DNA from: a bacterium
GTDB lineage: Bacteria; Patescibacteriota; Minisyncoccia; Minisyncoccales; UBA10102
Assembly (NCBI GenBank): GCA_027624865.1
Contig: JAQBTT010000003.1
Location: 1-42,853, forward strand
Direction of reading: 5' to 3'
DNA length: 42,853 bases
The translations under genes and the position numbers were made by a program. The notes below the pieces were generated by a model. The model ran no database searches, was not told the DNA's origin, and was given only the letters and a program-made list of their open reading frames with translations. Below, piece by piece: positions 2,903 to 42,538 of this stretch; the first letter of the stretch is position 1, and each line of letters begins with the position of its first letter.

Positions 2903-2948
2903 TCTCATAAAAGAGCAACCTAAACTTGGTTTGGCCAAGTTATCCCCA

Positions 2949-2965
2949 CCTAAGCTAAGCTTAGG
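2949..2965. repeat. TAAGC palindromic element, single copy
   Basis: CCTAAGCTAAGCTTAGG. Confidence 0.9.
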
Positions 2966-3053: not shown

Positions 3054-3102
3054 TTGATTCAGATGTAGTTTTTTGGCGTAATTTTATGGTATAATTACAA
3101 TT

Positions 3103-3615
3103 ATGATCAGGCAATTTATTAAAGGCAGAGTGTATGTTTTTGTAGATGCTGCGAATATTTTGTATTCATAGCAAACTTTGCGTTGGCGAGTGGATTATGC
3201 AAAACTTAAGGAATATTTTGAGCAAGAATGCGATCTCCAGGCTATTTATTTCTATACTGGTCGTGTTGGGGAGAATAATAAGCAAAACTCTTTTCTTAAA
3301 AAGCTTGAACGTTTTGGATATATCGTAAAAGCAAAAGAGGTAAAAAGGATTAAAGTTTCAAAAAGCACCTACGAATGGAAGGGTAATCTCGATGTAGAGC
3401 TTACCATTGATGTGCTTGGAAGTATTAATAATTTTGATACCCTTATTTTAATGTCAGGAGATAGCGATTTCGCTCCGCTTTTAGATGCGGTAAAAGCTCA
3501 ACACAAAAGAGTGCTGGTTATGTCTACGAAGGGTCATGTTTCAAAAGAGCTTTTAGATCGCGCGAAATACATCAACGTAAAGAAGTTAAAGGATTTTATT
3601 TCGTATTATAAATAA
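3103..3615 (+). pseudogene. NYN (DUF88/LabA-like) domain protein interrupted by an in-frame TAG
   Basis: MIRQFIKGRVYVFVDAANILYS*QTLRWRVDYAKLKEYF...LILMSGDSDFAPLLDAV. TAG at 3169-3171, frame otherwise continuous with the ORF at 3178. Confidence 0.8.
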
Positions 3616-3726: not shown

Positions 3727-3792
3727 CCTAAGCTAAGCTTAGTTATCCCCACCTAAGCTAAGCTTAGTTATCCACAGCTAAGCTAAGCTTAG
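3727..3792. repeat. Three tandem TAAGC palindromic elements, 25-bp period
   Basis: cctaagctaagcttag-ttatcccca-cctaagctaagcttag-ttatccaca-gctaagctaagcttag. Confidence 0.95.
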
Positions 3793-4143: not shown

Positions 4144-4195
4144 CTCTGCCTAAGCTTAGCTTAGTTATTCACAGCTAAGCTAAGCTTAGGCAGAG
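4144..4195. repeat. Inverted pair of TAAGC elements upstream of RAYT-1
   Basis: CTCTGCCTAAGCTTAGCTTAG - ttattcacag - CTAAGCTAAGCTTAGGCAGAG: perfect 21-bp arms, 10-nt loop. Confidence 0.95.
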
Positions 4196-4227
4196 CAAAC
4201 AAGAGACATTTGCAGTATACTGTTTTT

Positions 4228-4947
4228 ATGGCAAGAAAAACAAAGTTTAAAGTAGGAAATATATACCACGTGTTCAATAGAGGCGTCGAAAAACGCGATA
4301 TCTTTTTGTCGGACGGAGACCGATGGAGGTTTCTTCAAGGGCTTTATCTTTTTAATAGCGAAGATGGATCGGCAAATCTTTTGTATCGCTTGGAGCAAGA
4401 GAGAGGGAGGATGCATTTTGGGGTTTTGCGCGAATACTTAGCAAAAGCAGGAATAAGGCGTAACCCATTGGTGCGTATTATGGCAGATTGTCTCAAGCCC
4501 AATCATTTCCATTTACTTTTGCAGGAGCTTCAAGAAGGCAGTATTTCCAAATTTATGCAAAAGCTCGGGACAGGGTATACAAAGTATTTTAATAAAAAGT
4601 ACGAACGTGTGGGCAGTCTATTTCAAGGCACGTTTAAAGCAGTGGAAGTGAACAAAGACACTCAGCTTCAGTATCTTCTTGCGTACATAAACGTGATTAA
4701 TCCGGGCCAGGAGCTGGAACCCGATTTAAAATCGGCAGCGCAGGATCCAGAAGAAATTTTGCGGTTTGTAGAGAACTATCCTTGGAGTACCCACCCAGAA
4801 TATCTTGGGAAGCGCACCTCTATTATTGCCGACAAGGGTGTTGCGGGCAAAATGTTTCCTACACCGGCAAAGTACAAGGCATTTGTGGCGGATATTATAC
4901 GAGGTAAACAGCCTTTCCTATTACGTAAAGAAACGTTGTTGGACTGA
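4228..4947 (+). CDS. REP-associated tyrosine transposase-like (RAYT, Y1/IS200-like) protein, RAYT-1
   Basis: IYHVFNRGVEKRDIF, KPNHFHLLLQE (HUH), GYTKYFNKKYERVGSLFQGTF. Flanked on both sides by TAAGC palindromes. Confidence 0.9.
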   Translation: MARKTKFKVGNIYHVFNRGVEKRDIFLSDGDRWRFLQGLYLFNSEDGSANLLYRLEQERGRMHFGVLREYLAKAGIRRNPLVRIMADCLKPNHFHLLLQELQEGSISKFMQKLGTGYTKYFNKKYERVGSLFQGTFKAVEVNKDTQLQYLLAYINVINPGQELEPDLKSAAQDPEEILRFVENYPWSTHPEYLGKRTSIIADKGVAGKMFPTPAKYKAFVADIIRGKQPFLLRKETLLD

Positions 4948-4958
4948 CCCGTGGAAAA

Positions 4959-4977
4959 CTAAGCTTAGCTTAGGCAG
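4959..4977. repeat. TAAGC palindromic element downstream of RAYT-1
   Basis: ctaagcttagcttaggcag. Confidence 0.9.
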
Positions 4978-4980
4978 AAT

Positions 4981-5730
4981 ATGAGAGAGATATTGGAAAA
5001 AGTGAAAAATGGGGTGCTGGATGTTGTGTTTCCGACAATGTGTATGGGTTGCGGGAAGGAAGGGCATTACATATGTATGCGCTGTGAAGGATTTGTGGGT
5101 GAAGTTGCTTTGATTTGTCCGGTTTGTGGGCAGTCCAGTTTAACTGGGCAACAGCACCAAGCTTGCAGGTCGCTCTATGGCTTAGATGGTTTGGCAAGTT
5201 GTTTTGAGTATGAAGGAGTTGTGAAAAATTTATTGCATCACATAAAATATAATGGCATGACTCACGCAGTAAAAGAAACAACAGCTCGCGTACTTGGGAT
5301 TATGCTGGAAGACACAGCGCGATTTTATCCATTTCTCTCATTCTTGTCTTCTCAAAATATACATATAACATATGTTCCTATGTATAAAAAAAAGGAAAGA
5401 GATAGAGGATTTAATCAAGCAGAAATGTTTGCAAAAGAGATTGCAAAGAGCATGGGAAAGGAAGTTTTTACTATGCTTGAAAAGATAAAAGATACAAAGC
5501 CACAGGTTGCATTGAAAAAAGAAGAACGACTGCAAAATGTGAAAGATGCGTTTGCAGTTAGCAGGGTTAGCCCGCATAGCGCTGTAGGGGCTGACTCTAC
5601 TCTGCCAGAAAAGGTGATTTTGGTTGATGATGTGTGGACCACGGGAGCTACTATGAAAGAGTGCTGTAGAGTTTTGAAAAAAGCCGGGGCAAAAGAGGTG
5701 TGGGGCTTTACGTTAGCGAGAACTTCTTAA
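4981..5730 (+). CDS. comF: ComF family phosphoribosyltransferase-like competence protein
   Basis: N-terminal CMGCGKEGHYICMRC zinc motif; C-terminal VILVDDVWTTGATMKECC PRPP-binding motif. Confidence 0.9.
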   Translation: MREILEKVKNGVLDVVFPTMCMGCGKEGHYICMRCEGFVGEVALICPVCGQSSLTGQQHQACRSLYGLDGLASCFEYEGVVKNLLHHIKYNGMTHAVKETTARVLGIMLEDTARFYPFLSFLSSQNIHITYVPMYKKKERDRGFNQAEMFAKEIAKSMGKEVFTMLEKIKDTKPQVALKKEERLQNVKDAFAVSRVSPHSAVGADSTLPEKVILVDDVWTTGATMKECCRVLKKAGAKEVWGFTLARTS

Positions 5731-5734
5731 AAGA

Positions 5735-5785
5735 ATTAACCTAATTGACCTAATTTCTAATTAACCTAAACAATCTCCAATGCCC
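5735..5785. repeat. AT-rich repeat block (ttaacctaattgacctaatttctaattaacctaaacaatctccaatgccc)
   Basis: Related blocks at 6133-6190 (inverted) and 7075-7220. Confidence 0.7.
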
Positions 5786-6136
5786 AATGACAAATACGAC
5801 CTTGAAGAACGAACTGCTATGTTTGGGGAAGAAGTAATAAAGTTTTGCAGAGACTTGCCTAAGAATGAAATCACTAGACCCATTATTAACCAGCTAGTAA
5901 AATGTGGTACGAGTGTAGGCGCTAATTATTGTGAAGCTGACGACGCAGAAAGCAAGGATGATTTTAGACACAAAATAGGGATTTGCAAAAAAGAATCTAG
6001 AGAATCAAAGCATTTTTTGCGAATGGCAGCGGTAGCTGTTTTTGAAATGGCAGACAAAGCAAGAAAACTTTGGATTGAAGCAAAAGAGTTAAACCTGATT
6101 TTTAACTCGATATATAAGAAGGTTAAAAAAAATTAG
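5780..6136 (+). CDS. Four helix bundle protein (S23/IVS-like family)
   Basis: EVIKFCRDLPKNEITRPIINQLVKCGTSVGANYCEADDAESKDDFRHKIGICKKESRESKHFLRMA. Confidence 0.85.
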   Translation: MPNDKYDLEERTAMFGEEVIKFCRDLPKNEITRPIINQLVKCGTSVGANYCEADDAESKDDFRHKIGICKKESRESKHFLRMAAVAVFEMADKARKLWIEAKELNLIFNSIYKKVKKN

Positions 6137-6190
6137 AAATTGGTGCTTGTTTAGAAATTAGGTTAATTAGAATAATTAGGTTAATTAAAA
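6133..6190. repeat. AT-rich repeat block, inverted relative to 5735-5785
   Basis: attagaaattggtgcttgtttagaaattaggttaattagaataattaggttaatt. Confidence 0.65.
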
Positions 6191-7081
6191 ATGTTGACGG
6201 AAGAGAAAAATGTTGTCAAAAAGGAAAACTCTCGCTACCCCTCATTGCTTGGGGATATTTCTGATGCGCCAAAGCAGTTATATTATAAGGGTACCTGGAA
6301 TCTAGAGCTTTTTGATACATGTTTGGCAGTGGTAGGAACTCGAAGGATGACAAGCTATGGAAAGCGCATGACAGAAGATATTGTAAGCAAAGTAGCAAGA
6401 GCTGGCATAACTATTGTTTCTGGATTTATGTATGGTATTGATGCTGTGGCGCATAAGGCTGCAGTGAGCGCGGGCGGAAAAACCATTGCAGTAATGCCAT
6501 GCGGTATTGATATTGTTCACCCAGAATATCAAGCAGATTTGTATCAAGAGATTTTAGATACCGGTGGGTTAGTGCTTTCAGAATATGAAGGAACACACCC
6601 TCCAGCAAACTGGACATTTCCAAGAAGAAATCGCATTGTTGCAGGGTTGTCACAAGCTACGCTAGTGGTTGAAGCAGGAGAAGGCAGTGGCGCTTTAATT
6701 ACTGCAAATCTTGCTAAAAAATATGGAAGAAAAGTGTTTGCCGTGCCAAATCCTTTAACAAGCGCGGTTTCGCAGGGAGTGACGCAATTGCTTCGTGAAG
6801 GAGCAACTGTGGTAGGTGGCGCAGAAGATATTTTGCAATATTATGGGTTGCGAGATCGTGTGCCTAAGCTAAGCTTAGGAGCTCCTAAGCTTAGCTTAGG
6901 CACGGGAGTACAAGATGAACTGGAGCAAAACATTGTAGAGCAGTTAGAAAAACAATCGCTTCATGTAGATGAACTTGCTCGAAGGCTTGAGGTTTTACCA
7001 GCCAAATTGGGTGCTGCAATTTCAATGCTACAACTGGAGGGGTATATTAAAGAGGAGCAAGGGAGATACTATGTTAATTGA
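6191..7081 (+). CDS. dprA: DNA-processing protein DprA with in-frame palindromic insertion
   Basis: VVGTRRMTSYGKRM, SGFMYGIDAVAHKAA, PRRNRIVAGLSQATLVVEAGEGSGALITANLA; insertion VPKLSLGAPKLSLGT before the C-terminal winged-helix-like domain. Confidence 0.95.
   Translation: MLTEEKNVVKKENSRYPSLLGDISDAPKQLYYKGTWNLELFDTCLAVVGTRRMTSYGKRMTEDIVSKVARAGITIVSGFMYGIDAVAHKAAVSAGGKTIAVMPCGIDIVHPEYQADLYQEILDTGGLVLSEYEGTHPPANWTFPRRNRIVAGLSQATLVVEAGEGSGALITANLAKKYGRKVFAVPNPLTSAVSQGVTQLLREGATVVGGAEDILQYYGLRDRVPKLSLGAPKLSLGTGVQDELEQNIVEQLEKQSLHVDELARRLEVLPAKLGAAISMLQLEGYIKEEQGRYYVN
6860..6903. repeat. 44-bp perfect palindrome (two TAAGC elements) inside dprA
   Basis: gtgcctaagctaagcttaggagctcctaagcttagcttaggcac is its own reverse complement. 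Confidence 0.98.
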
Positions 7082-7220
7082 CCTAATTAACCTAATTTCT
7101 AATTGACCTAAACAAATTCTAATGCCCAATAATTCAATGATCAAAAGAAGCTTTAGGCATTGGTTTTTAGACATTGGAGATTGTTTAGAATAATTAGAGC
7201 AATTAGAATAATTAGAATAG
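7075..7220. repeat. AT-rich repeat block between dprA and the comM-like gene
   Basis: ttgacctaattaacctaatttctaattgacctaaacaaattctaatgccc ... gacattggagattgtttagaataattagagcaattagaataattagaatag. Confidence 0.7.
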
Positions 7221-7229
7221 TTTTATCCT

Positions 7230-8765
7230 ATGTTATTTAAAGTACAATCTATTGCAAATTCTGGCATGGAAGCGCTTGGAGTAGATATTGAGGTGAGTGT
7301 TTCAAGTAGAGGTTTGCCGGGTTTTGATATTGTGGGGCTTCCCGATAAGGCAGTGCAAGAAAGCAAGGAGCGGGTGCGCGCTGCAATTGGAAATTCAAAG
7401 ATTGAATTTCCACAAAGAAAAATTACGGTAAATTTAGCTCCAGCCGACATTCCAAAGGAGGGCTCTTTGTATGATTTGCCTATTGCGGTTGGAATTATGG
7501 CTTCTGTCTTGCAGTATGAGATTCCCAAAGACAGTTTATTTTTAGGCGAACTTTCTTTAGATGGCACGTTGCGTCATACAAAAGGGGCTGTGCTCATGGC
7601 GCTCTTTGCAAAAGAACAGGGATTTTGCAATGTTTTTGTGCCAGCAGAGTCTGCCAATGAGGCCGCAATTGTGCAAGGTGTAAATGTATATGGAATAGAA
7701 AATTTAGAGCAGATAGCGAGTTTTCTTTTGGGGAATCAAAAAATAAAAAAAGTGGCGTATTCTGCTCCGTTACTGACTGGGGCGGCTGATGCCGAGTTTG
7801 ATATGGCAGAAGTTCTTGGGCAAGAAACTGCTAAGCGAGCTATAGAGATAGCCGCGGCGGGAGGGCATAATATTTTAATGATAGGGAGTCCAGGTTCTGG
7901 GAAAACCATGCTGGCGCGAGCGTTGGCAGGCATCCTACCAAAATTAAATGAAGAAGAATCGCTTGAGGTGACAAAACTTTATTCTATTGCAGGAAATATT
8001 CCTCCGCGAGGGTCACTCATTACAGCTCGTCCTTTTCGCGCGCCGCATCACAGTGTTTCTCTTATCGGGTTGATTGGGGGAGGCCAAAAACCTCAGCCAG
8101 GCGAGGTGAGCTTGGCGCACAGAGGAGTATTGTTTTTAGATGAATTTAATGAATTTCCCCGTAGTGTGCTGGAAAGTCTTCGCCAGCCTGTGGAAGATGG
8201 CATGCTTACTATTGCGCGAAGCAGACAGCGAGTAACCTACCCTTGCCGATTTATGTTGGTGGCATCTTGTAATCCTTGTCCATGCGGATACCTTACTCAT
8301 CCAAAGAAAGCTTGTGTGTGCACGCCAAGAGAAGTAAAAAAATACAAAAAGCGAGCCTCGGGGCCGCTTTTAGACCGGATTGATCTGCATATTGAAGTAC
8401 CAGAAGTTGACATACAAGAGTTTCAAGATAATCAAAAGGCTTCACTTTCCAAAGAAAGTTCGTTTGCCATGCGAGAGCGAATTGAAAAGGTACGAAAGAT
8501 GCAAGAAGTAAGGTTTGCAGGGGAACCTATACATGCTAATGCCGAAATGAAGAATAGCCATATTAAAAAATACTCTTTGCTTTCAAAAGAAGCAGAGCAG
8601 ATATTGAGTCGAGCGGCTCTTTTGTATCAACTCTCTGCAAGGTCTTTTATGAAAATGATAAAAATAGCACGTACCATTGCAGATCTTGCAGGGGCAGAGC
8701 ACATTGAAAAAAGTCATATGGCAGAGGCTTTGCAGTACCGCCCCAAAGCATATGAATTTGATTAA
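7230..8765 (+). CDS. YifB/ComM family Mg chelatase-like AAA ATPase
   Basis: Walker A GSPGSGKTML, RPFRAPHHSVS, GVLFLDEFNEF, ASCNPCPCGY. Confidence 0.95.
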   Translation: MLFKVQSIANSGMEALGVDIEVSVSSRGLPGFDIVGLPDKAVQESKERVRAAIGNSKIEFPQRKITVNLAPADIPKEGSLYDLPIAVGIMASVLQYEIPKDSLFLGELSLDGTLRHTKGAVLMALFAKEQGFCNVFVPAESANEAAIVQGVNVYGIENLEQIASFLLGNQKIKKVAYSAPLLTGAADAEFDMAEVLGQETAKRAIEIAAAGGHNILMIGSPGSGKTMLARALAGILPKLNEEESLEVTKLYSIAGNIPPRGSLITARPFRAPHHSVSLIGLIGGGQKPQPGEVSLAHRGVLFLDEFNEFPRSVLESLRQPVEDGMLTIARSRQRVTYPCRFMLVASCNPCPCGYLTHPKKACVCTPREVKKYKKRASGPLLDRIDLHIEVPEVDIQEFQDNQKASLSKESSFAMRERIEKVRKMQEVRFAGEPIHANAEMKNSHIKKYSLLSKEAEQILSRAALLYQLSARSFMKMIKIARTIADLAGAEHIEKSHMAEALQYRPKAYEFD

Positions 8766-8773
8766 AATATCTG

Positions 8774-8793
8774 CTTAAGCTTAGCTTAGGCAG
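8774..8793. repeat. TAAGC palindromic element
   Basis: cttaagcttagcttaggcag between the comM-like and yraN-like genes. Confidence 0.85.
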
Positions 8794-27856: not shown

Positions 27857-27887
27857 GGGCTAAAACCGTTTTAGCCCGTTTTAGCCC
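27857..27887. repeat. GGGCTAAAACCGTTTTAGCCC palindrome plus extra half-arm, upstream of RAYT-2
   Basis: Palindrome at 27857-27877 followed by GTTTTAGCCC. Confidence 0.93.
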
Positions 27888-27903: not shown

Positions 27904-28623
27904 ATGTTTAGAAAACATCCATTTGTTGTAGGGACAATCCATCACATCTACAATCGTGGTGTGGCGAAGTGTTCCATTTGCGACAAAGAAACGGACTACT
28001 GGCGATTTCTGTAGGGTCTCTGTCTTTTTAGCGATACTAAGAGTACGGCAAGTATCCTTTGGCACTTGGAGCGTGAGCGAGGGCGGCTCTCCATGAATGT
28101 TTTAAAGGAATATCTTACACACCAGGGTATTGCTAGAGACTCATTGGTGCGTATTTTGGCCTACTGTGTTTTGAATAATCATTATCATCTTTTGATAGAA
28201 GAAATTAGCGAAGGAGGCATCACACAATTTATGCGTAAGCTTGGAGTTGGTTATGCAAAGTATTTCAATAATAAATACAAGCGGGTAGGGAGTTTGTTTC
28301 AGAATGTTTTTAAGAACGTTCTCGTGGACGACGATCGATACTTTCAATATCTTCTTGTGTATATCAATGTATTGAATCCAGCAGGCATCATTGAACCCAA
28401 TTGGAAAGAGGAAGGTTTTCAAAATATTGAGAAAGTGCTGGAGTTTGCGGAGCGCTATCAATGGAGCTCACATTTGGATTATCTTGGCAAACGCGGCTCT
28501 ATCATTTTAGACAAAGGCGTAGTGGCTACAATCTTTCCTACTCGCGAGTCATATTTTGAGTTAGTGAGATCGGTATTAGAAGGGAAACATTATAGAGAAA
28601 TTGAACATCTCGCTCTTGAATAG
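27904..28623 (+). pseudogene. RAYT-like Y1 transposase (RAYT-2) interrupted by an in-frame TAG
   Basis: MFRKHPFVVGTIHHIYNRGVAKCSICDKETDYWRFL*GLCLFS... VLNNHYHLLIEE... GYAKYFNNKYKRVGSLFQ. Same frame on both sides of TAG 28012-28014. RAYT-1 has WRFLQGLYLF at this position. Confidence 0.88.
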
Positions 28624-28632
28624 CTGGGTGCT

Positions 28633-28653
28633 GGGCTAAAACGGTTTTAGCCC
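28633..28653. repeat. GGGCTAAAACGGTTTTAGCCC palindrome downstream of RAYT-2
   Basis: Exact reverse complement of 27857-27877. Confidence 0.95.
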
Positions 28654-28668
28654 ACTCCCTTGAGTGAG

Positions 28669-34641: not shown

Positions 34642-35964
34642 CTATGCATTTCGTATCATCGCCTTTTTTCTCAAAAGTCTATGATACGAAATGGCAAAGC
34701 GGTGCGCTTCATCTCGAATATGAAGGAACATATGCTCCAAAGGTCTTGGGAGGTCTTTTAATAGTATTGGTTTTGATTTACCAGGAAAAAATAGTTCATT
34801 TTGTTTTTTTGCCAAAGCCACCACTTGGATGCTGCTGCCTAAGCTAAGCTTAGGCAGCGCTTTGAGGGCTGAGCTGAGCTGACCTTTCCCTCCATCAATA
34901 AGTATAATTTGAGGATAGGGCCATTCGGGGTGGCTGAGACGTCTTTTTACAAGTTCTTCCATCATAGCAAAATCATTTGCCTTACCTGTAATATGTATCT
35001 TGTACTTTCGGTAGTGTTCCTTTGCAGGAACTCCTTTTACAAAGGTAACTTGTGACCCTGTTGATTCCTTCCCTTGAATATTTGAGATGTCGTATGCCTC
35101 AATACGGGTTATTTTTTTTGTAGTGGAAAATAGTTTTGCTAGGTCCTTTTCCATTGTGCTCCAATTTAGGGAAGGTGAGCCTTCAAGAGCAAGAAGTCTT
35201 GCGTGTGAGACAATACGCTCGAGCGCCAGAAATTGATCGCGAAGTTCTACGGCTTTTTCAAAGTCCTGATTCTTTGCGGCAAGGCCCATATCTTTTTCAA
35301 GTTTCTTTAAAACAGAGGTCTTCTTTCCTTTTAAAACAGCAATAAGGCCTTGGATATTTTTTTTGTATTTTTTTGTATCAGGAGCAGGGCCAGGGCAAAG
35401 TTGTAAATGGCAGTACTGGCACAACAAAGGTGGGTGCTTTTTTGCAGTGTACCCAGCTCCACTGCGCTGGGGCTGGGTGTAGTAGGGGAATACCTTGCGT
35501 AGTAATCGTAATACTCGCTTAATTGCCTTTCCCTCTACAAAGGGACCAATGTACTCTGCGGTGCCTAAGCTTAGCTTAGGAGCTCCTAAGCTAAGCTTAG
35601 GCACAACTGGCTGATGCGTCAAAAATACTCTTGGGAGCTCTTCTTTTGTGATAGCAACATAGAAATACTTTTTATCATCCTTCCACATAACATTGTACCT
35701 TGGTTGCCCCTTCTTTATGAGACGAGATTCCAGGAGCAGTGCATCAATATCTGATTCTGTTTTTATATATCCAATTTTCGTCACAGATTTTATAAACAAA
35801 TCATCTCTGTATGTTGGTCCCGTGAAATGGTTTTTCACCCGTTCTTTCAGATTTGATGCTTTTCCTATATATAAGATGGTTTTGGGGGATGACAAAGCAT
35901 ACACGCCGGGTGCCTTTGGGAGTTCATTGAGCTTTGACTTTGGGGAATATATGAATTTCTCCAT
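34642..35964 (-). CDS. uvrC: UvrC-like excinuclease subunit (GIY-YIG plus RNase H-like domain) with palindromic insertions
   Basis: LPKAPGVYALSSPKTILYIGKASNLKERVKNHF; EAYDISNIQGKESTGSQVTFVKG; RDEAHRFAISYHR. Contains VPKLSLGAPKLSLGT and LPKLSLGS inserts. Confidence 0.93.
   Translation of the reverse strand: MEKFIYSPKSKLNELPKAPGVYALSSPKTILYIGKASNLKERVKNHFTGPTYRDDLFIKSVTKIGYIKTESDIDALLLESRLIKKGQPRYNVMWKDDKKYFYVAITKEELPRVFLTHQPVVPKLSLGAPKLSLGTAEYIGPFVEGKAIKRVLRLLRKVFPYYTQPQRSGAGYTAKKHPPLLCQYCHLQLCPGPAPDTKKYKKNIQGLIAVLKGKKTSVLKKLEKDMGLAAKNQDFEKAVELRDQFLALERIVSHARLLALEGSPSLNWSTMEKDLAKLFSTTKKITRIEAYDISNIQGKESTGSQVTFVKGVPAKEHYRKYKIHITGKANDFAMMEELVKRRLSHPEWPYPQIILIDGGKGQLSSALKALPKLSLGSSIQVVALAKKQNELFFPGKSKPILLKDLPRPLEHMFLHIRDEAHRFAISYHRLLRKKAMIRNA
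34834..34858. repeat. TAAGC palindromic element inside uvrC (single copy)
   Basis: gctgcctaagctaagcttaggcagc; encodes LPKLSLGS on the minus strand. Confidence 0.95.
35561..35604. repeat. 44-bp perfect palindrome (two TAAGC elements) inside uvrC
   Basis: gtgcctaagcttagcttaggagctcctaagctaagcttaggcac; encodes VPKLSLGAPKLSLGT on the minus strand. Confidence 0.98.
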
Positions 35965-36475: not shown

Positions 36476-36605
36476 GATTATTCCCTCCTTTCTTTATTCT
36501 TATGATAGGTGCCGTGTTACTTTGAGTAAAGCAAAATGACAGGTTTTTGCAAGCCCCAGGTATCTATTGAAATTACTTGCAATATCATGTATAATTGTAG
36601 AGTTT

Positions 36606-39575
36606 ATGGCTCAAGACTTCATCACAATTAGGGGAGCTCGCGTACATAATCTTAAGAATATTGATGTTGATATTCCAAAGGGGAAACTTGTTGTTATAAC
36701 AGGGCTTTCTGGATCTGGGAAAAGTTCTCTTGCCTTTGACACACTGTATGCGGAAGGACAACGTAGGTACGTTGAGAGTCTGAGCGCCTATGCTAGGCAA
36801 TTTCTTGGCATCATGCAAAAGCCTGATGTAGATAGCATTGAGGGCATTTCACCTGCTATTGCAATTGACCAAAGAAAGGGAGCACATAACCCAAGATCTA
36901 CTGTTGGAACCAGTACGGAGATTTATGATTACCTCCGTCTTTTATTTGCCAGAGTCGGTATTCCTCATTGCCCAAAGTGCAGAAAGGTGGTTTCCAAGCA
37001 ATCTGTTTCACAGATTGCAAGTCAGGTGCAAAAACTTCCAATGGGAAAAGAGATTTCTATTCTAGGTCCTGTTATTAAAGAAAAGAAAGGAGAACATCGC
37101 GGAGTACTAGAAGAGGTATTGCGTTCTGGGTTTGTGCGAGTTCGCGTGGATGGAATTGTAGAGCGCATTGAGGAAGCAATGGGACGCGAAATAGATGGCA
37201 AAAAGAAGCATTCCATTGAGGTTGTCGTAGATAGACTAACGATTGAAAAAGATTTGGATCGTCCTCGGCTTGTTGATTCTTTGGAAACCGCACTGAAACT
37301 TGGAAAGGGCATGGTGATAATAAATCACAAATCACAAATCACAAATCACAAACAAATCACAAATCCAAAAACACAAAACACAAATAATAAATCAGCATCA
37401 ATCAGTAGAAATCAGCATCAATCAGCGGCTGAAGACCTTGTCTTCAGCGAGCGGCTTGCTTGTGAGGAGTGCGGTATCTCATTGCCAGAGATTGAGCCTC
37501 GGGTATTTTCTTTTAACTCTCCTTTTGGAGCGTGTTTGTCTTGCCAGGGATTGGGAGAAAAATTGGAGGTTGATCCAAAATTGGTTATCCCCAACCCAAG
37601 ACTTTCCATTGCAGAGGGAGCTATTTTTCCTTGGGCTCACGCTTCACATAAAATTGGGAGGCAGGGATTCTTTTGGTGGAAGCTAGAAGACTTGGCAAAG
37701 GAGCGTAAGTTTTCGCTCAATAGTCCCGTGAAAGATCTCCCCTCTAGCGTGACAAAGTTAGTATTGCACGGAGATGGAGACTTTGAAGGGGTCATTCCTT
37801 GGCTCCAAAGACGCTACCATGAAACTGATTCTGAATATGCTCGGGAAGAAATTGAGCAGTACATGGTAGAGAAGATTTGCGAAGCATGCCAGGGGCAAAG
37901 ATTAAAACCAGAGGTTTTGGCAGTAACGGTTGGAGGAAAATCTATCCACGAAGTAGTAAGTCTTCAGTTAAATCATACAAAAGAGTTTTTTTCCAAGCTT
38001 GTATTAAAGGAGCATGAAAACAAAATTGCGCATCCCATTATTAAAGAAGTACTAAACAGACTACAGTTTTTAATTGATGTTGGGCTTGAGTATTTAACCT
38101 TGGCAAGAAAGGCAGGGACTTTGTCTGGAGGAGAGGAGCAGAGAATACGTCTTGCAACCCAGATTGGTTCCAAGCTTACTGGAGTACTATATATTTTAGA
38201 TGAGCCATCCATTGGACTCCATGCAAGAGATCAGCACGGGTTAATTGCAACATTAAAGCAACTTCGCTCGCTGGGAAATACCATTGTGGTTGTGGAACAT
38301 GATGCACAAACCATGGCAGCCGCTGATTGGATAATAGATATTGGCCCTGGAGCTGGAAAGCACGGAGGCAAGGTTACGTTTCGTGGTACCCCAAAGCAAC
38401 TATTAAAATCACATACCTTAACGGGAGACTATTTTTCAGGAAGAAAAACAGTAACGGTACAGCGCCGAACAACCGTTGCTTCCCCAGGGGAAGCAATCCC
38501 AGGAGGGGAAGCAACCCCAGGAAAAGGGCCATTGCTTCCCCTGGGGAAGCAATGGCCCTACTCAAAAGTAGGGTCAGACCCTACTTTGCAGATGGTTATT
38601 AAAGGGGCATCCCAAAACAATTTAAAAAATATTGATGTAAAAATTCCTTTAGGGAAGCTCGTATGTGTTACTGGGGTTTCAGGTTCAGGGAAGAGCTCTT
38701 TGGTAAATGATATCTTGGCAAAGGCATTGCTTAAAAAACTGTATCGGGCAAAGGAAGAACCAGGGGAACACAAAGCAATTGAGGGAGTTGAGAATGTAAA
38801 CAAAGTGGTGTTGGTAGATCAGTCGCCCATAGGAAGAACTCCAAGGAGCAACCCCGCAACCTATACAGGGGCCTTCTCTGTTGTGCGAGATTTATTTACA
38901 GGAACGAAAGAGGCAAGGATACGAGGGTATGCCTCAGGAAGATTTTCTTTTAACGTGAAAGGAGGAAGGTGTGAGTCATGTGAAGGACAGGGCTTAAAAA
39001 AGATTGAGATGTACTTTTTGCCAGATGTGTATGTTGAGTGTGAGGAGTGCCAAGGGAGAAGGTATATGAAGGAAGTGCTTGAGGTGCAGTATAAAGGAAA
39101 GAATATTGCAGAGGTACTGGACATGACTGTAGAGGAATCTTTGGACTTTTTCAAAAATGTTCCATCGCTTGCGCTAAGGCTAAAGACCTTAAACGATGTA
39201 GGACTTTCCTACGTTGAGCTAGGTCAGCCAGCGCCATCGCTGTCTGGTGGGGAAGCACAGCGAGTAAAACTGGCAACAGAACTTGCAAAGAAAGCAACAG
39301 GGAAGACTCTCTACATATTGGACGAGCCAACTACGGGGCTACATTTTGATGATGTACGAAAGCTTTTGCAGGTTTTAGGAGAACTTGTAGATAAAGGAAA
39401 CTCTGTGCTTGTTATAGAGCATAACCTTGACCTCATACGCGCTGCTGACTGGATTTTAGATTTGGGTCCTGAAGGAGGAGAGAAAGGAGGGCAACTCATT
39501 GCAGAGGGGACACCAAAAGATGTTGCGAAAGTAAAGAAGAGCTACACTGGGCAGTTCTTGCAAAAGACTAATTAG
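36606..39575 (+). CDS. uvrA: UvrA excinuclease ATPase with two low-complexity/palindromic insertions
   Basis: [39 protein letters not shown]; two ABC signature motifs; zinc-finger cysteines. ATG at 36606. Confidence 0.97.
37318..37430. repeat. Direct-repeat array in uvrA (atcacaaatcacaaa.. and aatcagcatcaatcag..)
   Basis: aaatcacaaatcacaaatcacaaatcacaaacaaatcacaaat ... aaatcagcatcaatcagtagaaatcagcatcaatcag. Confidence 0.9.
38472..38588. repeat. Palindrome cluster inserted in uvrA
   Basis: TTGCTTCCCC-A-GGGGAAGCAA; GGGCCATTGCTTCCCC-T-GGGGAAGCAATGGCCC; AAAGTAGGGTCagACCCTACTTT. Confidence 0.9.
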
Positions 39576-42462: not shown

Positions 42463-42477
42463 CTCACGAGAATGTTG

Positions 42478-42519
42478 CCTAAGCTAAGCTTAGTTATCCC
42501 CACCTAAGCTAAGCTTAGG
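42478..42519. repeat. Two tandem TAAGC palindromic elements, 25-bp period
   Basis: cctaagctaagcttag-ttatcccca-cctaagctaagcttagg. Confidence 0.95.
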
Positions 42520-42538
42520 CAGACTAGCTTAAGCTAGG

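Follow-up and report, generated by a model that had tools for sequence, protein, structure and literature searches.

A Y1/HUH single-stranded (ss) DNA transposase-like gene, RAYT-1, which neighbors the competence genes comF, dprA and comM in a bacterium of the Candidate Phyla Radiation (CPR), is probably a domesticated, vertically inherited enzyme with the short palindromes scattered through its genome as its non-autonomous substrates. The distribution of these palindromes among related genomes also lets us advance, as a tentative proposal, that this competence-cluster RAYT could drive a concerted in-place rewriting of a fixed set of palindromes, including copies within essential proteins, as its specificity drifts. 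If this holds, a segment of some 14-15 residues encoded within essential genes would be set and updated by a DNA-processing enzyme. The stretch analyzed here, termed the window, is the 42,853-nt contig C11; the genome, from Candidatus Wildermuthbacteria (CPR), comprises 559 kb and is 98.9% complete. Beyond the window, the genome was read in the parts that surround elements or genes of interest.

The open reading frame of RAYT-1 spans 4210-4947 from an alternative TTG, with the ATG at 4228 being the more likely start because it best fits the homologues. Its preliminary description as a Y1/HUH RAYT-like gene is well founded: it matches Pfam Y1_Tnp with 34.6 bits (cut-off 23), none of 32 homologues departs from the H93-x-H95 (HFH) motif or from Y153, and comparison of its AlphaFold model (pLDDT 89, pTM 0.87) with the PDB recovers as the top fold match the structure of a REP-associated tyrosine transposase in complex with its REP hairpin, 4er8 (E = 3e-6). 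This structure outranks all IS200-type transposases, with those of ISDra2 and IS608 being the next best. While the fold comparison gave this match, a profile search of PDB sequences with RAYT-1 gave none; a search of PHROGs likewise returned no meaningful match, and no Bac_DnaA_C or HTH domain is detected in the protein by Pfam. RAYT-1 also falls below the cut-off of the NCBIfam RAYT equivalog NF047646 (25.9 versus 80 bits). It is present in one copy among five Y1 genes of the genome. The closest named homologues come from Candidatus Wildermuthbacteria, Nealsonbacteria and other Patescibacteria, which supports the CPR origin that had been considered probable from the DNA alone.

RAYT-1 is followed by comF and then dprA in this genome and in the relatives G002, G003, G005, G014, G016 and G019, with G018 showing the order comF-RAYT-1-dprA-comM. 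Wherever the available stretch is long enough (this genome, G002 and G018) comM comes after dprA, and a DUF3276 gene lies 5' of RAYT-1 in this genome, G003 and G005. The syntenic genomes bearing RAYT-1 span at least six genera of the family and encode one gene each of the RAYT-1 clade (support 0.999), except for G018 which has two. Judging from this gene order and the clade, RAYT-1 is vertically inherited beside comF-dprA-comM. Between comF and dprA, the present genome also codes for a member of the 23S rRNA intervening-sequence-protein family (5780-6136).

Table 1. Location of RAYT-1, its neighbors and the palindromic elements (positions in the window)
Feature	Positions	Strand	Remarks
RAYT-1, Y1/HUH ssDNA transposase-like gene, 239 aa	4228-4947	+	Pfam Y1_Tnp; HFH and Y153; 4er8 fold match; clade support 0.999
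Conserved neighbors of RAYT-1: comF (4981-5730), dprA (6191-7081), comM (7230-8765)	4981-8765	+	Same order in G002
Diverged unit CTTGGTTTGGCCAAG, spacer TTATCCCCAC and one exact unit	2925-2964		Form I, mixed stems
Array of three units, spacers TTATCCCCAC and TTATCCACAG	3728-3792		Form I
Inverted pair, spacer TTATTCACAG	4144-4195		Form I; upstream of RAYT-1
Single 15-bp unit, not a pair	4959-4973		11 nt (4948-4958) after the RAYT-1 stop
44-bp perfect palindrome in dprA	6860-6903		Form II (GAGCTC); in frame between Rossmann and winged-helix domains
One-mismatch unit	8775-8789		Between comM and the next gene
Single unit inside uvrC	34834-34858		In frame, peptide LPKLSLGS
44-bp perfect palindrome in uvrC	35561-35604		Form II; in frame in linker
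Pair, spacer TTATCCCCAC	42476-42521		Form I; downstream of groEL
Form II host genes: dprA, uvrC, an isoleucyl-tRNA-synthetase-type gene, tsaD (twice), pth, a Mur ligase gene, cca, rnhB, an ATP-pyrophosphatase-like gene			
Variant-spacer host genes: argS, a PGA_cap gene			

Examination of the flanks of RAYT-1 bears out the perfect 21-bp inverted pair reported immediately upstream of it, the arms of which (4144-4164 and 4175-4195) are 100% complementary over 21 nt each around the 10-nt spacer, as well as the further element 11 bp past its stop. As ssDNA the upstream pair folds at -24 kcal/mol (z = -7.9). In the window, 15 sites match the underlying 15-mer CTAAGCTWAGCTTAG at up to two mismatches, versus 0.13 expected from shuffles; in the whole 559-kb genome there are 69 sites at up to one mismatch and 66 with the exact query, versus 0 for the reversed pattern. 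The spacers at 3743, 3768, 4165 and 42494 match or nearly match the DnaA-box consensus (TTATCCACA, TTATTCACA, TTATCCCCA).

These elements occur in two forms: 1) form I, with a 10-nt spacer of the TTATCCMCA type and a period of 25; 2) form II, with a GAGCTC spacer and a period of 21, usually enclosed within TGC...GCA, which yields a palindrome of 42-44 bp. The presence of the repeats within coding sequences, also recorded in the preliminary description, is confirmed by the copies in dprA and uvrC (Table 1). In this genome, 10 of 14 form II elements lie inside genes versus 0 of 13 form I pairs (p = 1.5e-4), a count in which the copies of L068 and L082 are not taken as intragenic, since in our judgment the true gene starts leave them narrowly outside, and from which a variant-spacer copy in L078 is set apart. 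Form II elements read through in frame as a peptide of some 14-15 residues, and the reading frame and domains of the element-bearing host genes are intact; of the host names, rnhB, cca, the ileS type and the ATP-pyrophosphatase represent our reading of Pfam hits and sequence motifs. All the intragenic copies are in a single frame, typically [VL]PKLSLGAPKLSLG[TR]. Given that the unit is open in one of the three frames, and that a 21-nt period holds both units in that frame while a 25-nt period does not, survivorship explains the single frame; this 21-nt period is also the probable reason for the persistence of the GAGCTC form in genes. Palindromes of other kinds are also seen in the excision repair genes: uvrC contains a further in-frame palindromic insert ACCCAGCTCCACTGCGCTGGGGCTGGGT (35451-35478, peptide YTQPQRSGAGYT), which among 20 aligned relatives is found at the same site in G016 only, and a single linker of uvrA (38473-38587; gene 36567-39575) contains three palindromes in frame that belong to other families, one of which, AAAGTAGGGTCAGACCCTACTTT, resembles the palindromes that flank a different RAYT clade in G001 (L044).

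To what extent RAYT genes are paired with their own palindromes can be gauged from 72 homologues with enough flanking sequence, mostly from CPR with a few from Omnitrophota, Nitrospirota and Spirochaetia bins. In 61 of these, an exact 13-mer is common to the two 80-nt flanks, upstream of the start and downstream of the stop, versus 4.2% in a mispaired-flank control. The common words are mostly palindromic and differ gene by gene. The paralogues in the same genome behave likewise, with TGGGCTAAAACNGTTTTAGCCCA next to RAYT-2 and, at the copy on contig C24, a CCAACTTCGCACCCC palindrome. Thus, bracketing by cognate palindromes is general among these CPR RAYTs. RAYT-2 itself (27904-28623), which is bracketed by GGGCTAAAACNGTTTTAGCCC palindromes (27857-27877 and 28632-28654), shows an in-frame TAG in place of a conserved glutamine and is probably a recent pseudogene. 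An in-frame TAG (3168-3170) is also seen in a NYN-domain gene (3102-3615) with an apparent ATG near 3103; recoding of TAG was ruled out for both genes, as it is the stop codon of 12 out of 28 genes.

The cognate pairing proposed in the preliminary description is therefore upheld by flank-sharing and by the architecture of the elements; the check suggested there, a correlation of the RAYT-1 subfamily with the TAAGC motif across genomes, failed in the form in which it was put, as the exact motif is abundant only in the present genome and absent or nearly absent in the eight other genomes with RAYT-1. Exact-motif co-occurrence was for this reason abandoned in favor of the architecture that the RAYT-1 genomes have in common, namely paired 15-nt hairpins, a TTATCCMCA spacer and a genome-dependent stem. 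Counts of this architecture are higher in genomes with RAYT-1 (mean 11.1 versus 2.4 without; Mann-Whitney p = 0.002). The main exceptions are G016, which possesses RAYT-1 with no form I match, and G011 (82% complete; L107, L122), which has 17 form I matches and in which a RAYT homologue was not found, with both loss and a missing contig being possible. G009 and G010 contain 5 and 7 elements, respectively, without a match. Together these observations partly support the earlier interpretation, which was right in kind and incomplete.

The elements of the RAYT-1 genomes are pairs of 15-nt hairpins (CTxxxx-nnn-yyyyAG) spaced by TTATCCACAN or TTATCCCCAC. The pattern AGTTATCCMCANCT is found in 16 of the 25 members of the family with up to 18 occurrences per genome (control 0) and never exceeds 3 in the 222 other genomes of the order that were searched. 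The dominant stem is CTAAGCTAAGCTTAG in the present genome, CTAAACGAGATTTAG in G002, CTTACCGAGAGTAAG in G003 and CTTGGCCCGACCAAG in G005, with G014 and G018 having mixed stems. The stem flanking RAYT-1 is exactly one of the genome's stems in the present genome, G005, G014 and G018; in G002 it is the genome stem with one extra base, and in G003 the flank stem CTTACCCAGGGCAAG is related, though not identical, to the dominant CTTACCGAGAGTAAG.

Comparison of orthologous sites reveals that the same codon positions are occupied by other stems among relatives in tsaD, uvrC, dprA, cca, pth, rnhB, ileS, the ATP-pyrophosphatase-like gene and mur. In G002, from the same genus, GAGCTC elements with the G002 stem occupy the same codons of dprA, cca and pth, while the same sites in tsaD (both), rnhB, ileS, the ATP-pyrophosphatase gene and mur are taken by palindromes whose stem is that of G002 or closely similar. 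The stem that flanks the RAYT of G014, from another genus, is CCTAAGCGAGGCTTAGG, and it recurs in that genome at the first tsaD site and in the uvrC linker; in G005, the stem flanking its RAYT is found in rnhB and the ATP-pyrophosphatase gene. In G004, where RAYT-1 was not found, decayed elements with a G002-like stem are seen in the uvrC linker and the ATP-pyrophosphatase gene. The site of the single unit in uvrC is occupied by other palindromic inserts in G002 and G003, and that following comM by a form I element in G002. Of 17 G002 elements examined with their flanks, at least 9 are located at element sites of the present genome, intergenic ones included, two of them in the other spacer form; this coincidence has p = 1.6e-7 to 3e-4 at an assumed background of 0.06-0.15, a rate that is our own estimate.

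In light of these observations, we propose that RAYT-1 might bind the hairpin in ssDNA, and cut and rejoin strands at its foot, thereby spreading copies. New copies would tend to overwrite old ones because a resident element would itself be a recognized target, and drift in specificity could thus convert the population of elements at fixed sites to a new stem. Replacement of resident elements in place by RAYT-1 is what we infer from the same-site differences. The same pattern could arise from repeated loss and insertion at the same sites, due either to a target preference of RAYT-1 or to a paucity of tolerant loops and gaps, with no conversion in place, a scenario that is conceivable but somewhat doubtful. 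The location of the inserts in linkers and variable loops is in line with it, as are the other palindrome families in the linkers of uvrC and uvrA, since repeated insertion wherever it is tolerated would give a similar picture. However, the match in position is exact to the codon in many genes and extends across genera, intergenic sites agree too, and decayed copies persist where RAYT-1 is missing. For these reasons the comparative data favor turnover in place over re-insertion at hotspots, short of proof; the other spacer form at two of the common sites fits either reading.

The conserved location of RAYT-1 beside comF, dprA and comM raises the prospect that the palindromes are DNA-uptake or self-recognition sequences, with RAYT-1 processing incoming or replicating ssDNA and the copies spreading by transformation and selection rather than transposition. 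Copies in the genome-maintenance genes dprA, uvrC and rnhB would be in keeping with this, and short, abundant sequences, often arranged as inverted pairs, likewise serve DNA uptake in Neisseria and Haemophilus. Known uptake sequences are, however, far denser than the approximately one unit per 8 kb seen here (66 in 559 kb), and the other palindrome-bearing RAYT clades are not located beside comF-dprA, making this explanation improbable. It is also rather unlikely that the elements act in replication control by titrating DnaA, with RAYT-1 only spreading them. This is suggested by the spacer TTATCCACA, which equals the high-affinity DnaA box, by the additional occurrence of TTATTCACA and TTATACACA, and by the TTWTNCACA sites around dnaA in the family. 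Nevertheless, TTATCCCCA is common in the spacers while TTTTCCACA, which is frequent near dnaA, is absent from those seen; form II has no such box; and the reverse strand of the spacer (GTGG-ATAA) could instead represent a guide-like tag. A role as a DnaA box is hence suggestive and was not upheld. Finally, an ordinary IS200/IS605-type element, in which gene and hairpin ends move together as a multicopy unit, is very improbable in spite of the Y1 transposase with hairpins near both gene ends and the ISDra2 and IS608 transposases as the next best folds: RAYT-1 is single-copy in most genomes (one copy here), its best fold match is a RAYT, many solitary element sites adjoin no transposase, and the synteny kept across several genera argues against a plain IS200 element, which was rejected on this ground.

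REPs inside genes, including repair genes, and REPs or RAYTs outside Proteobacteria are already known (PMC3733652, PMC6006769, PMC8266576). Therefore, of the extension of known behavior envisaged in the preliminary description, invasion of coding sequences in a CPR genome stands but such invasion is not by itself new (PMC3733652). What is new is the CPR host, the inheritance of a RAYT in a competence cluster, the coding-compatible form of the element and the widespread turnover of stems at the same sites; no treatment of RAYTs in the CPR was found in the open-licence PMC literature. In-frame palindromes in protein genes of Rickettsia (PMC10969869) have been known since 2000, and repeats of the CGTC type, including some of these, apparently lack a dedicated transposase (PMC3733652). 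For the coding elements described here there is a candidate enzyme, together with a relative lacking RAYT-1 (G004) and orthologous sites with a changing stem at an unchanged position, so that what moves coding palindromes and how proteins tolerate them become directly testable.

Among the closest known systems are the REP-RAYT (TnpAREP) REPtrons and REPINs, in which a single-copy, inherited Y1/HUH gene is flanked by short hairpins (PMC2817692, PMC3116915, PMC6006769, PMC8266576); tens of copies of these are scattered over the genome, frequently in inverted pairs, with one palindrome family per RAYT gene. RAYT-1 agrees with this in its Y1 core with HUH and tyrosine, RAYT fold, cognate hairpin flanks, dispersed hairpins without the gene (66-69 copies) and low-copy vertical inheritance. 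It differs in its score under the NCBIfam RAYT cut-off, its CPR host, the dedicated in-gene form and the turnover of stems at fixed sites between related species, and also in the foot of the hairpin: no 5' GTAG or GTGG was seen within 0-2 nt of it among the elements inspected, with a GTGG occurring 4-6 nt away on the reverse strand in form I only. GTGG is an accepted variant of the REP tag (PMC6006769).

Long terminal inverted repeats flank the tyrosine transposases known as TIRYTs (PMC3733652). These are RAYT relatives with non-GTAG inverted repeats and, in some cases, moderate repeat families (subclass 2.1 in PMC6006769), and the clade-3 palindromes here contain GGGACWGTCCC, which is near the TIRYT motif GGGGWSAS. 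In contrast, the RAYT-1 units are hairpins of 15 nt that come in pairs around a TTATCCMCA or GAGCTC spacer, and Pfam detects neither Bac_DnaA_C nor an HTH domain in RAYT-1. A further likeness is offered by the mitochondria of Nematomorpha, with long perfect palindromes in coding sequences and some hairpin midpoints common to species; these are mitochondrial, and the available part of that account links them to no transposase-bearing repeat family (PMC6649704).

The Rickettsia palindromic elements (RPEs) resemble form II in being in-frame palindromes in many unrelated housekeeping genes, DNA-repair genes included, at sites tolerated by the protein (Ogata 2000, 2002, as conveyed in PMC10969869 and PMC6649704). 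They are set apart by a length of about 150 bp versus 42-44 bp here (with about 100-150 bp as the range for membership) and by the CGTC tag of RPE-4 and RPE-6, which the present elements lack; conversely, the latter have a candidate cognate transposase and different stems at the same site in about ten genes. For different REPs at about the same site there is one precedent, in Xanthomonas recB (PMC3733652). As the tests for GTAG at the hairpin foot and for the NCBIfam model both failed, we do not call the system a canonical REPtron; it works like a REP-RAYT system combined with Rickettsia palindromic elements.
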